This document shows, piece by piece, positions 3,599 to 7,694 of a stretch of DNA of 44,000 bases; position 1 is the first letter of the stretch; each line of letters begins with the position of its first letter. This DNA comes from a virus, in the IMG/VR virus record IMGVR_UViG_3300048837_000544, positions 1 through 44,000 of that record. One strand, given 5' to 3'. Both the position numbers and the translations under genes were made by a program. The notes under the pieces were generated by a model. That model made no database searches. It was not told where the DNA came from and was given only the letters and a program-made list of their open reading frames with translations.

Positions 3599-3955
3599 TT
3601 ACACTTCCTTGATGTCAATGCCGTGAACGGCTTTCATGAGCTTGCGCTTGAGTTTGTAGGTTTGAGTCTTCACGCCCTTGGCATCCTCGACTGTCACCGC
3701 CCCACCCCGCTCGTATACGAAGTCGGCCACATACACTGCGACCCTCACACCATTCACCACTAGCGGATAGCGCACTTGCCGGCGCAGGTTGCTGATGTCG
3801 CCGGCGCGCTGCTCGATGCGCAACTCGCACCAGCGCTCATACTCGCGCTTGGAGTCGAACATGCCGTCGGGTGAGTCCACCTTGACGTTGCGATACTTCG
3901 CCGGCGCTTTCTCGCCGGTGAGCCTGGCGTAGGTGGATGCGGTGAGTCTGATCAT
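3599..3955 (-). CDS. DUF1064 family, nuclease-like protein
   Basis: 118 residues from ATG 3955, chosen because it makes an ATGA overlap with the methyltransferase stop; an upstream ATG (3973) adds six residues. The sequence follows the DUF1064 pattern: DSKREYERWCELR, then ISNLRRQVRYPLVVNG, then VAVYVADFVYE, VTVEDAKGVKTQTYKLKRKL and a C-terminal HGIDIKEV. E (in REYE), D (in VADF) and E-x-K (VEDAKG) are arranged like a PD-(D/E)XK active site, and the family is generally placed with such nucleases. It probably cuts branched DNA during phage recombination, next to the RuvB-like motor. Confidence 0.8.
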   Translation of the reverse strand: MIRLTASTYARLTGEKAPAKYRNVKVDSPDGMFDSKREYERWCELRIEQRAGDISNLRRQVRYPLVVNGVRVAVYVADFVYERGGAVTVEDAKGVKTQTYKLKRKLMKAVHGIDIKEV

Positions 3956-4773
3956 TGCGTCAACAACTTCCATGCAAATTGAGCCACTGCCGGAACTTGT
4001 CCGTTCCCAAGTGCTCTAAGCTGCTCCACCCGATAGGCCATCCCATCAACCACTCGACCCAGCGCGGGTTCAACTTCCCACCAACCACACTGTTCAGGTT
4101 TGGCGAGTCTCTTAGCTTCTGGCTCGGTGCCCCGTTGTTCTTCGAGTCGTTCACCGTCGGCGTCGGGTAAAAGTTCACCGCCTCCGCCAATCCCTTCTGG
4201 CCACTGTGCGATTGCGACTTGCGCCCGCTGTGCGCGGCTTCGCTTGCCCTCGGTGTCGGGAAGTGTGTCGTGCGCAACGATCCACGCGCGCTCGCGTATG
4301 TGGGGAGCGCCGGCGTGCCAGGCCCCCACAACACCCCATCGCGCGTCATACCCCATCGTTGAAAGATCGCCGATGACTCTGGCAATGCCTCGTCCCACAA
4401 GTGCTGGTGAGTTTTCCACGAAGACGAATCGCGGTCGAACTTCGCCCACAATGCGCGCCATGTGCCGCCATAGGCCGGATCGGTCACCATCGATGCCGGC
4501 GCCCTTGCCGGCTGGGCTGATGTCCTGACACGGGAAGCCTCCCGACACCACGTCAACAACGCCTCGCCACGGTCTGCCGTCAAAACTGCACACGTCAGAC
4601 CAAATCGGGAATGGCGCGAGGGTTCCATCGTTTTGTCGTTGTGCCAAAACTTGTGCGGCGTAGGCATCACGTTCAACTGCGCAGACGGTTCGCCATCCGA
4701 GCAGGTAGCCTCCGAGAATGCCTCCACCAGCGCCTGCGAAAAGAGCCAACTCATTCATTCCTCTTTTGATCAT
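3952..4773 (-). CDS. DNA (cytosine-5) methyltransferase
   Basis: 273 residues from ATG 4773; ATG 4758 (MNELALFAG) would also work but has the AGAGGA almost touching it. Motif I LFAGAGGGILGG (11-22), catalytic PCQ with Cys82 in GGFPCQDISPAG, motif VI ENSPAL (120-125) and motif VIII HIRERAWIV (158-166) are all present. The C-terminus has the usual RALGNGQVP motif. It transfers a methyl group from SAM to cytosine C5 in a short site; the target is not readable from sequence, though GCCGGC is strikingly common in this genome. The whole second reading frame 3960-4754 is nested inside it on the same strand. Likely protects phage DNA from host restriction. Confidence 0.9.
   Translation of the reverse strand: MIKRGMNELALFAGAGGGILGGYLLGWRTVCAVERDAYAAQVLAQRQNDGTLAPFPIWSDVCSFDGRPWRGVVDVVSGGFPCQDISPAGKGAGIDGDRSGLWRHMARIVGEVRPRFVFVENSPALVGRGIARVIGDLSTMGYDARWGVVGAWHAGAPHIRERAWIVAHDTLPDTEGKRSRAQRAQVAIAQWPEGIGGGGELLPDADGERLEEQRGTEPEAKRLAKPEQCGWWEVEPALGRVVDGMAYRVEQLRALGNGQVPAVAQFAWKLLTQ
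3960..4754 (-). CDS. Overlapping gene nested in the methyltransferase (dual coding candidate)
   Basis: 264 residues in a different frame of the same strand, almost fully inside the m5C methyltransferase gene. It is not shadow-like. It carries WRALWAKFDRDSSSWKT, a WGMTRDGVLW motif, two F/YPTP motifs (FPTPRAS, YPTPTVND) and a C-terminus GGKLNPRWVEWLMGWPIGW followed by DKFRQWL. I know this signature set (SWKT, RWGxxRDG, WPTP repeats, LNPxWVEWLMGWPxGW) from phage proteins usually annotated as methyltransferase-associated or hypothetical. ATG 4754 lies 4 nt after AGAGGA and forms an ATGA overlap with the stop of a 37-residue upstream frame, as elsewhere in this operon. Function unknown; translation is inferred. 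Confidence 0.55.
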   Translation of the reverse strand: MSWLFSQALVEAFSEATCSDGEPSAQLNVMPTPHKFWHNDKTMEPSRHSRFGLTCAVLTADRGEALLTWCREASRVRTSAQPARAPASMVTDPAYGGTWRALWAKFDRDSSSWKTHQHLWDEALPESSAIFQRWGMTRDGVLWGPGTPALPTYASARGSLRTTHFPTPRASEAAHSGRKSQSHSGQKGLAEAVNFYPTPTVNDSKNNGAPSQKLRDSPNLNSVVGGKLNPRWVEWLMGWPIGWSSLEHLGTDKFRQWLNLHGSC

Positions 4774-4882: not shown

Positions 4883-5971
4883 TTAGGACGCCGTAATCAC
4901 CTCAGTAAAGAGCGTTTCGTTCTTTGCCACGCGCTCGGCGTCTTCGATGTATTTGCACGCCCACTTGAAATACGAATCTTTCAACTCGATGCCGACACCA
5001 CACCGCCCCATCTCGACGGCCGTGTAAGGCACGCTTCCGATGCCGGCGAACGGGTCAAGCACGACATCGCCGTGCGTCGTCCATAGCCGAATGGCGCGCT
5101 TGATCAGGTCCAGTTGCAACGGGCAGATGTGCTTTTCATCCTTGCCCTCTTTGGCGAGCTGGTAGTTGAGCGTGTCCATTCGGTCAACGTCAAGCCAGAT
5201 CCACGGCGGCGACTTCGTGATCTTCGGGCCGGCATAGCGTCCGCCCATGTAAGGCACGACATCGCCGGCGGCGGTGATGTCATGGCCATCTTCGATGGCG
5301 GCCACACGCGCCTCATGGTCATAGCGCGCCCCTTCCAGCACCGTGCCGTCGCTCTGCCAGATCGCGTTCGCCTCAAGCTGCCAGCGGCGCAGGGTGTATT
5401 CGTTCGCGTCATGCGGCACACGCACCGCGCTGAATGAGCGGTCATCGGGCAGCCCTTCCCACTTGCGATACAGCATCAGGTATTCGGGGATGCCGGGGCC
5501 GCACATGGATGCGTCCTCTTTGATGTCCATGTAGCGCAGGCCTTGCCGTTTAGTCTGTTGCAGCTCGCGCACCGGATCCGTCGCAATCGTGATGCGCGCA
5601 TGAAAGTTCCAGCCGTGCTTCAGCATCGCGCTGGTCACCATGTCGCTGAACGGATTCAGGCCGCCTGAGCCGCTGCGGTTCTTGTAGCGCAGGCGGTCTT
5701 TGACGTGCACGGCACAGATGCGCCCGGGCACAGTCACGCGCAACCATTCCGGAATGGCCCAGTCGAGATGATCGAAGAAGCCGGCATCGCCGAGGTTGTT
5801 GCCGAGGTCGTGGTCACTCGACGAATACGTGTATTGATCTGAGAATGGGATGCTCGTCAGAATCATGCCGACACTGTTATCAGGAATGCCGCGAATGACC
5901 TCGACGGTATCGCCGTGATACATCGCGGCGTGTTCTGTGAAGTGGTGGCCTAGCAATTTGATCTTGTCCAT
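4883..5971 (-). CDS. DNA methyltransferase, N6-adenine/N4-cytosine type
   Basis: 362 residues. ATG 5971 is chosen because AAGGGAGAT lies just upstream. Motif IV reads TSIPF (39-43), a variant of the usual TSPPY/F. The SAM-binding motif I, VVLDPFAGIGS (about 304-313), lies near the C-terminus, so the motif order is IV then I (beta class, N6_N4_Mtase family). It should methylate an exocyclic amino group of A or C; the target is unknown. No restriction endonuclease partner is visible, so this is an orphan phage methyltransferase, probably anti-restriction. An Ile in the first Pro position of TSPP is unusual but seen in phage relatives. Confidence 0.87.
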   Translation of the reverse strand: MDKIKLLGHHFTEHAAMYHGDTVEVIRGIPDNSVGMILTSIPFSDQYTYSSSDHDLGNNLGDAGFFDHLDWAIPEWLRVTVPGRICAVHVKDRLRYKNRSGSGGLNPFSDMVTSAMLKHGWNFHARITIATDPVRELQQTKRQGLRYMDIKEDASMCGPGIPEYLMLYRKWEGLPDDRSFSAVRVPHDANEYTLRRWQLEANAIWQSDGTVLEGARYDHEARVAAIEDGHDITAAGDVVPYMGGRYAGPKITKSPPWIWLDVDRMDTLNYQLAKEGKDEKHICPLQLDLIKRAIRLWTTHGDVVLDPFAGIGSVPYTAVEMGRCGVGIELKDSYFKWACKYIEDAERVAKNETLFTEVITAS

Positions 5972-6012
5972 TTGAATATCTCCCTTCATGAAATGAATTG
6001 TTGAAACGGTTG

Positions 6013-7449
6013 TTATTGCGACTTCAACCACGGCGGCAGCTTCATCGCCTTCGTCGGCACGTAGTCGTAATCTTCGAAGTGCGTCGCCTGGGCAAGCAAT
6101 CCCGTGGCGCGCATCGCCTTATTCATCTGCGCCTGCATGACCGTGTATTGCGCCTCTTTGCGCTGCAAGGCCTGCACGACGTTGCCCTCGGTCGATGCGC
6201 TCACCATCGACAGTTCGACCTCGTGCGTCTGGCCATAGCGATAGAAGCGGCGAATCAACTGAAACGTGCGCTCGAATGAGAACGTCATGGATGAGATGAC
6301 CGTGCGGTGGCAGTGTTGCCAGTTCATGCCGAAGCCTGCAATCGCCGGCTTGGTGATCAGCACGCGGATGTTGCCAAGCGAGAAGTCGCGCAGCTTCTGG
6401 CGCTTCGTCTCGAACGGCTCATCGCCGCGCACCTCTGTCGCATCGGGCAACAACTCGCGCATCATGTCGCCTTCGTCGTTGCGCTCAACCCATACGACGC
6501 ACGGCGTTGACGTGTCGCGGTTCGCCCAGTCAGCGGCGGCGGCCATGCGCTCGTCGAGCGTGACGCGCTTGTTGGCGTGCAGCTCTGTCGCGCTGAGCGC
6601 CTGCATCGCAAACAGCGCCGCCTGGCCCCATCGGTTCGGGTTATCCCAGGCATGCTCAGGGTTGATTGCAACTTCCAGATGCTCAACCTTGAGCGGCGGC
6701 AGAATGAAGCCGGCGTCATCAAAGCCGAGGTCGCTGGGCTTCGACATGCACACCGCCCAGCTTGCAACCCACTTCCAGAAGTCTTCTTCAGCGTGGCCCT
6801 TCAGGCGCAGTGTGTCGGCCTGATTCGAGTCTCGGATAAACCAGCGCGTGATCATTTCATGCCATGGCATGATGCCGAGCGCCTGCGCATGGTTGCCCAA
6901 CTCGTCGTGATCGTTCGGAGCCGGCGTGGCCGTCAGTGCCAGCCGATACGGCGTGTGCTTCCACATGCGGTTAATCATGTTGCGCGTGGCCGACGACGAT
7001 TCTTTGATGATGCTTGATTCATCCCACACCGTTGCCGAGAATTCAGCCGGCGTAAAGCGCTCCATCAGCTCATAGTTGGAGATAACAACCTGCGTTTTTG
7101 CCGCGTTCGCTTCATCCTGATTGCGCACGTAGGTCAACTCGTAGCCCCACTTCGGCGCTTCGGTATCCACAAACTGATCTGCGACGGCGAGCGGCGCAAA
7201 CATGACGACGCGCTTATCAGTGCGCCGCGCGATCTGATGCGCCCATTCCAGTGCATTAAGCGCCTTGCCGCCGCCGGTGATGATGAACTCGGCAGCGCGG
7301 CCACGATGCAATGCCCACTGTGTAATGGCGCGCTGGTCGGCGCGCATCTTTGGATTCAGGTCGCGCTCATCCACCTCGAAGCCGGTCAGCGTGTCGTGGC
7401 GCGTCTTGGCCTGCACCCATGCGCGGTAATCGTTCAAAGTCTTTTTCAT
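6013..7449 (-). CDS. SNF2/DEAD-like phage helicase
   Basis: 478 residues from ATG 7449, which overlaps the upstream stop as ATGA. Two RecA-like lobes. The Walker A position reads FIITGGGKALNALEW (55-69), where typical relatives have GxGKT: the Thr is replaced by Ala. The Walker B/motif II is WDESSIIKE (142-150), the DESS form common in phage SNF2-like helicases, followed by LALTATPAPN (motif III). C-terminal motifs VLITKPAIAGFGMNWQHC and FQLIRRFYRYGQ (motif VI with arginine fingers) are intact. Likely remodels or unwinds DNA at phage replication forks. The altered Walker A suggests weakened or atypical ATP binding, or a read error. Confidence 0.85.
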   Translation of the reverse strand: MKKTLNDYRAWVQAKTRHDTLTGFEVDERDLNPKMRADQRAITQWALHRGRAAEFIITGGGKALNALEWAHQIARRTDKRVVMFAPLAVADQFVDTEAPKWGYELTYVRNQDEANAAKTQVVISNYELMERFTPAEFSATVWDESSIIKESSSATRNMINRMWKHTPYRLALTATPAPNDHDELGNHAQALGIMPWHEMITRWFIRDSNQADTLRLKGHAEEDFWKWVASWAVCMSKPSDLGFDDAGFILPPLKVEHLEVAINPEHAWDNPNRWGQAALFAMQALSATELHANKRVTLDERMAAAADWANRDTSTPCVVWVERNDEGDMMRELLPDATEVRGDEPFETKRQKLRDFSLGNIRVLITKPAIAGFGMNWQHCHRTVISSMTFSFERTFQLIRRFYRYGQTHEVELSMVSASTEGNVVQALQRKEAQYTVMQAQMNKAMRATGLLAQATHFEDYDYVPTKAMKLPPWLKSQ

Positions 7450-7694
7450 TGTGCACTCACCCGCTTCGCCTGTCCGGCCGGCGCCGCATAGCGCTGGCCC
7501 ACTTTGATGCTGCCGACATTCGGCGCATCGAGCTTGATCACGATCTTGGTGTAGCGCTCGCGCACGATGCACTCAACGACGCCGATGTTGCTCCTGGCGT
7601 GGTCGTAGTCGAAGATCACCTCGCCGGCGATCACCAGGCGCGCCTTGCGCATGTTGGTCAGGCGGACGCGCTGTCCTTTGCGGAGTTGGATCAC
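7446..7694 (-). CDS. Small beta-rich unknown protein
   Basis: 82 residues starting at GTG 7694, which overlaps the previous stop as GTGA (7691-7694); longer in-frame extensions would run through the Thr-Gln-Ala-Ala repeat region in the wrong frame. Sequence VIQLRKGQRVRLTNMRKARLV onward is dominated by short strands (KIVIKLDAPNVGSIKVGQRY), suggesting a small SH3-like or OB-like barrel. The family is not recognised. Its position between a DNA-binding-like protein and a helicase suggests an accessory DNA-metabolism role. Confidence 0.6.
   Translation of the reverse strand: MIQLRKGQRVRLTNMRKARLVIAGEVIFDYDHARSNIGVVECIVRERYTKIVIKLDAPNVGSIKVGQRYAAPAGQAKRVSAQ

Follow-up and report, generated by a model that had tools for sequence, protein, structure and literature searches.

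Two almost completely overlapping reading frames that probably encode the subunits of one phage C5-cytosine methyltransferase

A cytosine methyltransferase gene that stays open in a second frame of the same strand raises the question of whether this frame is a gene and, if so, what its product does. We analysed such a locus in a 44-kb window, meaning the whole stretch of 44,000 nucleotides under study (IMG/VR record IMGVR_UViG_3300048837_000544, positions 1 to 44,000). The window carries integrase, terminase, portal, and tape-measure genes and is thus from a temperate tailed phage. A preliminary description had proposed that the nested frame is a conserved overlapping gene encoding a second, separate protein family. 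Here, the catalytic frame is called alpha and the nested frame beta.

The two frames and their start region

The 264-codon nested frame was found within the methyltransferase gene as described, on the same strand and with its ATG and AGAGGA (Table 1). The start region reads AGAGGA-ATGA-ATG-AGT-TGG, with the beta ATG 4 nt downstream of the alpha ATG. The distance from AGAGGA to the beta ATG is 4 nt in the window. A Shine-Dalgarno-like site is present in 83 loci, and in 45 of them, the most common arrangement in relatives, the spacing is 4 nt to the alpha start and 8 nt to that of beta. The ATGA link to an upstream micro-frame, reported previously, differs in one detail, since within the nested frame TGA abuts ATG (TGA-ATG). 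The shared bases were also recovered, ALGNGQVP in alpha coinciding with HLGTDKFRQW in beta (with LNPRWVEWLMGWPIGW just upstream) and LPDT with FPTP. The N-terminal MSW of beta shows no variation across 103 aligned homologues, and the start module [AG]TGAATGAG[CT]TGG holds three methyltransferase-synonymous sites fixed; because the start pattern served to gather this homologue set, the frequency of the pattern is best taken from loci found through the methyltransferase. Directly upstream of the C5-methyltransferase pair lies a separate N6/N4-type DNA methylase gene (PF01555; window 4883-6031, minus strand), and beyond it a helicase gene (window 6013-7572).

Table 1. Features of the overlapping locus and their positions in the window
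Feature	Position	Strand	Remarks
Alpha, C5-cytosine methyltransferase frame	3952..4773	-	273 aa from ATG 4773
Alpha from conserved start ATG 4758		-	268 aa; motifs I-VIII and X, without motif IX
Beta, nested frame	3960..4754	-	264 aa, ATG start, +1 relative to alpha
Start module ATGAATGAGTTGG, common to both frames	4746..4758	-	alpha ATG 4758, beta ATG 4754
AGAGGA, Shine-Dalgarno-like hexamer	4759..4764	-	
Alpha motif IV GGFPCQ, catalytic cysteine	4525..4542	-	invariant or nearly so (alpha alignment)
Alpha motif VI ENSP	4405..4416	-	alpha alignment
Alpha motif VIII APHIRERAWIVA	4273..4308	-	alpha alignment; hhalign to one-ORF methyltransferases
Alpha motif X ALGNGQVP	3991..4014	-	G251 N252 G253 Q254 V255 invariant in alpha alignment
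Beta conserved block SSWKT ... RWGMTRDG	4335..4424	-	overlaps alpha catalytic domain; beta alignment
Beta PTP-repeat region FPTP...YPTP	4158..4262	-	length varies among relatives
Beta putative motif IX segment LNPRWVEWLMGWPIGW	4026..4073	-	hhalign to one-ORF methyltransferases; alignment with Dcm RRLTPRECARLMGF
DUF1064 / Holliday junction resolvase-like gene	3599..3973	-	start overlaps alpha and beta 3' ends; context only

Coding in the nested frame

In the window alone, synonymous shuffling expects 2.5 stops in the nested frame (P(open) 0.023), and since 2.3% of the shuffles leave the frame open, this single sequence is weak evidence of coding. Comparison across relatives is decisive and, at the level of sequence, settles that the nested frame is coding. 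Seventeen representatives picked by their methyltransferase, below 70% methyltransferase identity, contain 0 nested-frame stops against 79 expected (log10 P <= -39.7). All 36 representatives together contain 5 against 156 expected; as half of this larger set was picked either for similarity to the nested protein or for the ATGAATGAG start pattern, the methyltransferase-selected subset and a survey of Pseudomonas are the fairer evidence. In that survey of 299 genomes, the methyltransferase family was present in 16, each of which had the nested family at the same position, and two further genomes gave partial nested matches. Almost without exception, loci found through the methyltransferase keep the nested frame open over its whole length; the third frame of these loci has 7-27 stops. 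The nested frame is also open in L102, whose alpha gene has 46% GC. Codon bias as the cause of the open frame was ruled out by the stop counts together with the shuffle scores given below.

To separate beta's own conservation from that of alpha, a nested-family model was trained on half of the representatives and scored on the other half. Held-out real sequences scored 226-377 bits, in comparison to 74-225 bits for 720 synonymous shuffles, indicating that shadow conservation accounts for part of the nested similarity and not for all of it; the earlier suggestion that motif conservation arises partly from double coding is thereby supported. In pairs at 75-98% methyltransferase identity, dN/dS was about 0.22 for the nested frame (SN/SS, methyltransferase-silent, beta-altering changes relative to doubly silent ones) and 0.17 for the methyltransferase (NS/SS, beta-silent, methyltransferase-altering changes), pointing to purifying selection on both frames beyond shadow conservation. 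Synonymous sites of the methyltransferase frame, proposed earlier as a check on the overlap, are constrained at this ratio, and normal synonymous variation was not seen. Changes at codon position 3 are suppressed; between L107 and L114, for example, changes are distributed 44/12/21 over the codon positions, compared with 7/7/71 in a neighbouring gene. Such control genes were chosen by an automatic procedure, and one or more of them (L010/L025) resembles a shadow frame. The balance of selection varies along the gene. The methyltransferase dominates the first half; in deciles 6-8 it shows hardly any constraint (NN/SN 0.8-1.15), and beta is strongly constrained (SN/SS 0.09-0.16). In the LNPxWVEWLMGxPxGWT segment, SN/SS for beta is 0.04 versus an NS/SS of 0.14 for alpha. 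The N-terminal ~150 residues of beta (SWKT, RWGxxRDG) are conserved as well, with dN/dS of about 0.14-0.3.

The best 80 IMG/VR relatives by nested protein all lie in the same relative frame of a methyltransferase. Whether homologues always lie inside dcm-like genes had been posed as a check; they nearly always do, and in the same +1 frame. The possibility that the nested protein has independent stand-alone homologues was rejected, the classed outside candidates being nested, split, or fused methyltransferase parts, with some partial loci left unclassed. A conserved overlapping gene with homologues in many phages and prophages is thus borne out by stops, selection, and co-occurrence. One of the two partial Pseudomonas matches (L371, Pseudomonas genome G119, reverse-strand 959-2047) belongs to another methyltransferase subfamily (TGSCPCQPFSSAG ... 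RLRAYGNAINAEA) with a +1 nested frame of its own; overlap of this kind may extend beyond the studied family. A spirochaete plasmid, Leptospira interrogans p2 (L249, 3001-3786), carries a complete nested frame with an MSW start, where PGAP annotates the methyltransferase alone.

Motif IX and the three gene layouts

Alpha is a C5-methyltransferase in which motifs I, IV (PCQ), VI (EN), VIII, and X are all present. It matches PF00145 in Pfam (E 2e-28) and phrog_363 in PHROGs (E 4e-66), and its residues 5-169 match M.HhaI by profile (E 1e-19). The motif IX segment is absent from the alpha consensus between motifs VIII and X, and in hhalign comparison with one-ORF methyltransferases the catalytic part alone aligns. 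Beta matches phrog_1008 (E 9.9e-18) and phrog_26627 (E 1e-13) in PHROGs. Searches with the nested protein gave no match in Pfam and NCBIfam and no credible match among PDB sequences. The AlphaFold2 model of beta alone, with the 103 homologues as input, was poor (pLDDT 56), and Foldseek found no match for it in the PDB.

Comparison with relatives leads us to identify the C-terminal LNPxWVEWLMGxPxGW segment of beta as C5-methyltransferase motif IX, the one that alpha is without. In one-ORF proteins, motif X follows the segment immediately, so that the segment occupies the position of motif IX in E. coli Dcm (RRLTPRECARLMGF...FGNSVV). Alignment of beta with mycobacteriophage one-ORF methyltransferases by hhalign (96% probability, E 5e-9) spans exactly this segment and weakly supports the PTP repeats, a region that the one-ORF methyltransferases place between motifs VIII and IX. 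Since Pfam gave a single weak PF00145 match to C-terminal fragments (E 0.23, profile 277-315), the identification rests on one segment of ~20 residues and its position. The AlphaFold2 model of a one-ORF protein is confident at residues 300-390 (pLDDT mostly 78-95) and disordered in the PTP region; Foldseek aligned it with M.HhaI mainly over the catalytic core, so motif IX comes without structural confirmation. The idea of a second, separate protein family does not stand, because the C-terminal part of beta appears to be the methyltransferase's own motif IX segment, in frame in L246, L260, L308, L316, L325, and others.

Scoring of the frames in which the motifs lie gave 188 overlapping loci with motif X in alpha, 8 split loci with motif X in beta, 10 +1 loci without a match to motif X, and 28 loci in one ORF; only 2 are in frame +2. 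The beta-type segment is in frame in the one-ORF methyltransferases L246, L260, L308, and L316 and in 20+ mycobacteriophage methyltransferases; Gordonia phage Rabbitrun and the mycobacteriophages L325-L347 hold all segments within one ORF. In Arthrobacter phage Renna12 (L242, gp41/gp42) and Streptomyces phage Euratis (L248, gp33/gp34), the catalytic ORF stops after motif VIII, and the PTP repeats, the segment (as EWMMGxPxGWVT), and motif X are found in a +1 ORF. This split form, in which alpha ends after VIII and the +1 ORF has IX and X, also occurs in L252, L309, L310, and L348-L350, the last being close mycobacteriophage relatives of the one-ORF L325-L347, with the second part in +1. All three layouts are found among the Firmicute-type loci: most of L264-L310 are overlapping, L309 and L310 are split, and L308 and L316 are one ORF. 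Homologues beyond shadow translations therefore exist, the segment being part of the main coding frame in split and one-ORF relatives. Two loci have composite structures. L350 (2338-3312) is a mosaic whose +1 ORF holds PPHKRERVFIVAHPAG, normally an alpha-frame stretch, beside nested-frame sequence, which suggests recombination or frameshift exchange between frames. L296 (2209-3243) has one ORF in which the nested-frame C-terminus follows directly on the catalytic N-terminus, and its motifs VI-VIII and X remain in another frame; it is probably a frameshifted or recombinant copy.

The small subunit of M.EcoHK31I was reportedly found by Lee, Kam and Shaw in 1995 to be encoded within the large subunit's gene in another frame. 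In this enzyme, one polypeptide has motifs I-VIII and X and its partner has motif IX; M.AquI is split I-VIII / IX-X (PMC3404938). By motif layout, the window locus resembles M.EcoHK31I (YGGCCR), whose large chain has I-VIII and X and whose small chain has motif IX. The two differ in that the TRD of M.EcoHK31I is predicted in its large subunit; the window pair, by comparison, is encoded by a phage, has start codons separated by 4 nt, and includes a beta chain almost equal in length to alpha. In M.AquI (CYCGRG), the large subunit has I-VIII and the small subunit the distal variable region with IX-X (PMC3404938), a layout shared by relatives from actinophages and by some others (L242, L248, L252, L309, L310, L348-L350); the window, by contrast, has motif X in alpha and an overlap spanning nearly the whole gene. 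One-ORF phage C5-methyltransferases (phrog_116 / phrog_363; L325-L347) likewise comprise a catalytic domain, PTP repeats, EWMMGxPxGW, and motif X, but have everything in one frame. Phage ShiLan has an HNH endonuclease hidden out of frame within a methylase gene insertion (PMC11855218); that is a homing endonuclease in a mobile insertion, whereas the overlap in the window is methyltransferase coding sequence itself.

Interpretation and significance

From the sequences compared, we consider it likely that the locus encodes a two-subunit C5-methyltransferase with its subunits in two almost completely overlapping frames. The frames are best read as subunits of one enzyme because the motif IX segment found in one-ORF methyltransferases lies in beta and is missing from alpha. 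In the proposed mechanism, ribosomes would start at either of the two start codons, 4 nt apart, from one ribosome-binding site. One frame would yield alpha, with motif X and the motifs I-VIII for AdoMet binding and catalysis, and the other would yield beta, with the motif IX segment and the PTP-repeat region as a probable target-recognition part; together, alpha and beta would form a single active orphan methyltransferase that probably protects the phage. We infer that beta is translated, binds alpha, and sets the specificity, and that both would be needed for methylation. As the M.EcoHK31I TRD is predicted in the large subunit, the placement of the TRD in beta is tentative, and a fast-diversifying TRD within alpha would likewise appear unconstrained.

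An overlapping gene with an unrelated job (e.g., anti-restriction or regulatory), merely sharing the methyltransferase DNA, is unlikely in our judgement. The N-terminal conservation of beta in its own right would fit such a gene, as would seven loci (L029, L176, L179, L206, L214, L218, and L222) in which alpha has one nonsense codon, at differing places and in L222 directly after the catalytic PC, with beta intact. These loci are not predicted by strict co-dependence of alpha and beta and run against it; their excess is partly due to sampling, since most of them came from searches with beta as bait, and decaying prophages would explain them. An unrelated job is at odds with a motif IX segment that lies in frame inside one-ORF methyltransferases and beside motif X in split forms, with an alpha without motif IX, and with the complete co-occurrence of alpha and beta in Pseudomonas.

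Programmed ribosomal frameshifting that fuses the alpha N-terminus to the beta C-terminus into one hybrid methyltransferase is very improbable. In the split actinophage forms, whose close relatives are one ORF, one +1 shift would suffice to give a complete methyltransferase. The window type would require two shifts, since its motif X is in the alpha frame; beta also has its own conserved start (the invariant MSW, and Shine-Dalgarno-led internal starts in Firmicute-type loci), and its frame is conserved upstream of every position at which a shift would help. That the nested frame is a productless shadow, held open by base composition, codon bias, or a DNA/RNA constraint, is hardly credible. The chance openness of the window's frame in some shuffles and the part of the nested similarity that reflects alpha would allow it, but the stop counts, shuffle scores, and selection ratios across relatives speak against it, as do the open frame in L102 with its alpha gene of 46% GC, the avoidance of third-position changes where beta would be altered, and the use of the same residues in the main coding frame of split and one-ORF homologues. 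It is contradicted in that it needs normal synonymous variation in alpha, which is absent.

The two-subunit reading bears on annotation. Annotation of the nested frame is piecemeal, with the label 'DNA methyltransferase' in some records and 'hypothetical protein' in others. The GenBank records of phage SOVA965 (L247) and Virus Rctr197k (L245) give the nested frame only, labelled DNA-cytosine methyltransferase or conserved hypothetical, and omit the catalytic frame. The family holding the nested protein, phrog_1008, is already labelled 'DNA methyltransferase', a label that omits the overlap with the catalytic gene and the lack of a catalytic domain. In PHROGs and GenBank, where this label is used, we found no mention of the overlap, and a literature search of open-licence papers found no description of it. 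The analysis sets right a widespread fault, the omission of one frame or the naming of the wrong one as 'methyltransferase' (SOVA965, Rctr197k, Bloom gp56/57).

A broader picture, in which phages of many bacterial phyla keep a methyltransferase with subunits written over one another and its motif IX part shifts repeatedly among three layouts (one ORF, split, and fully overlapping) by frameshifts and recombination, with beta possibly having a role of its own, is offered tentatively and is rather doubtful; a separate role may exist, since beta persists at loci with a nonsense codon in alpha. If beta is required, specificity prediction or enzyme cloning from alpha alone would fail. The locus presents a deeply conserved same-strand overlap of about 800 nt with a testable reason, namely that the frames would encode two parts of one enzyme, and its one-ORF, split, and overlapping relatives form a natural series on how overlapping genes arise and why they persist.
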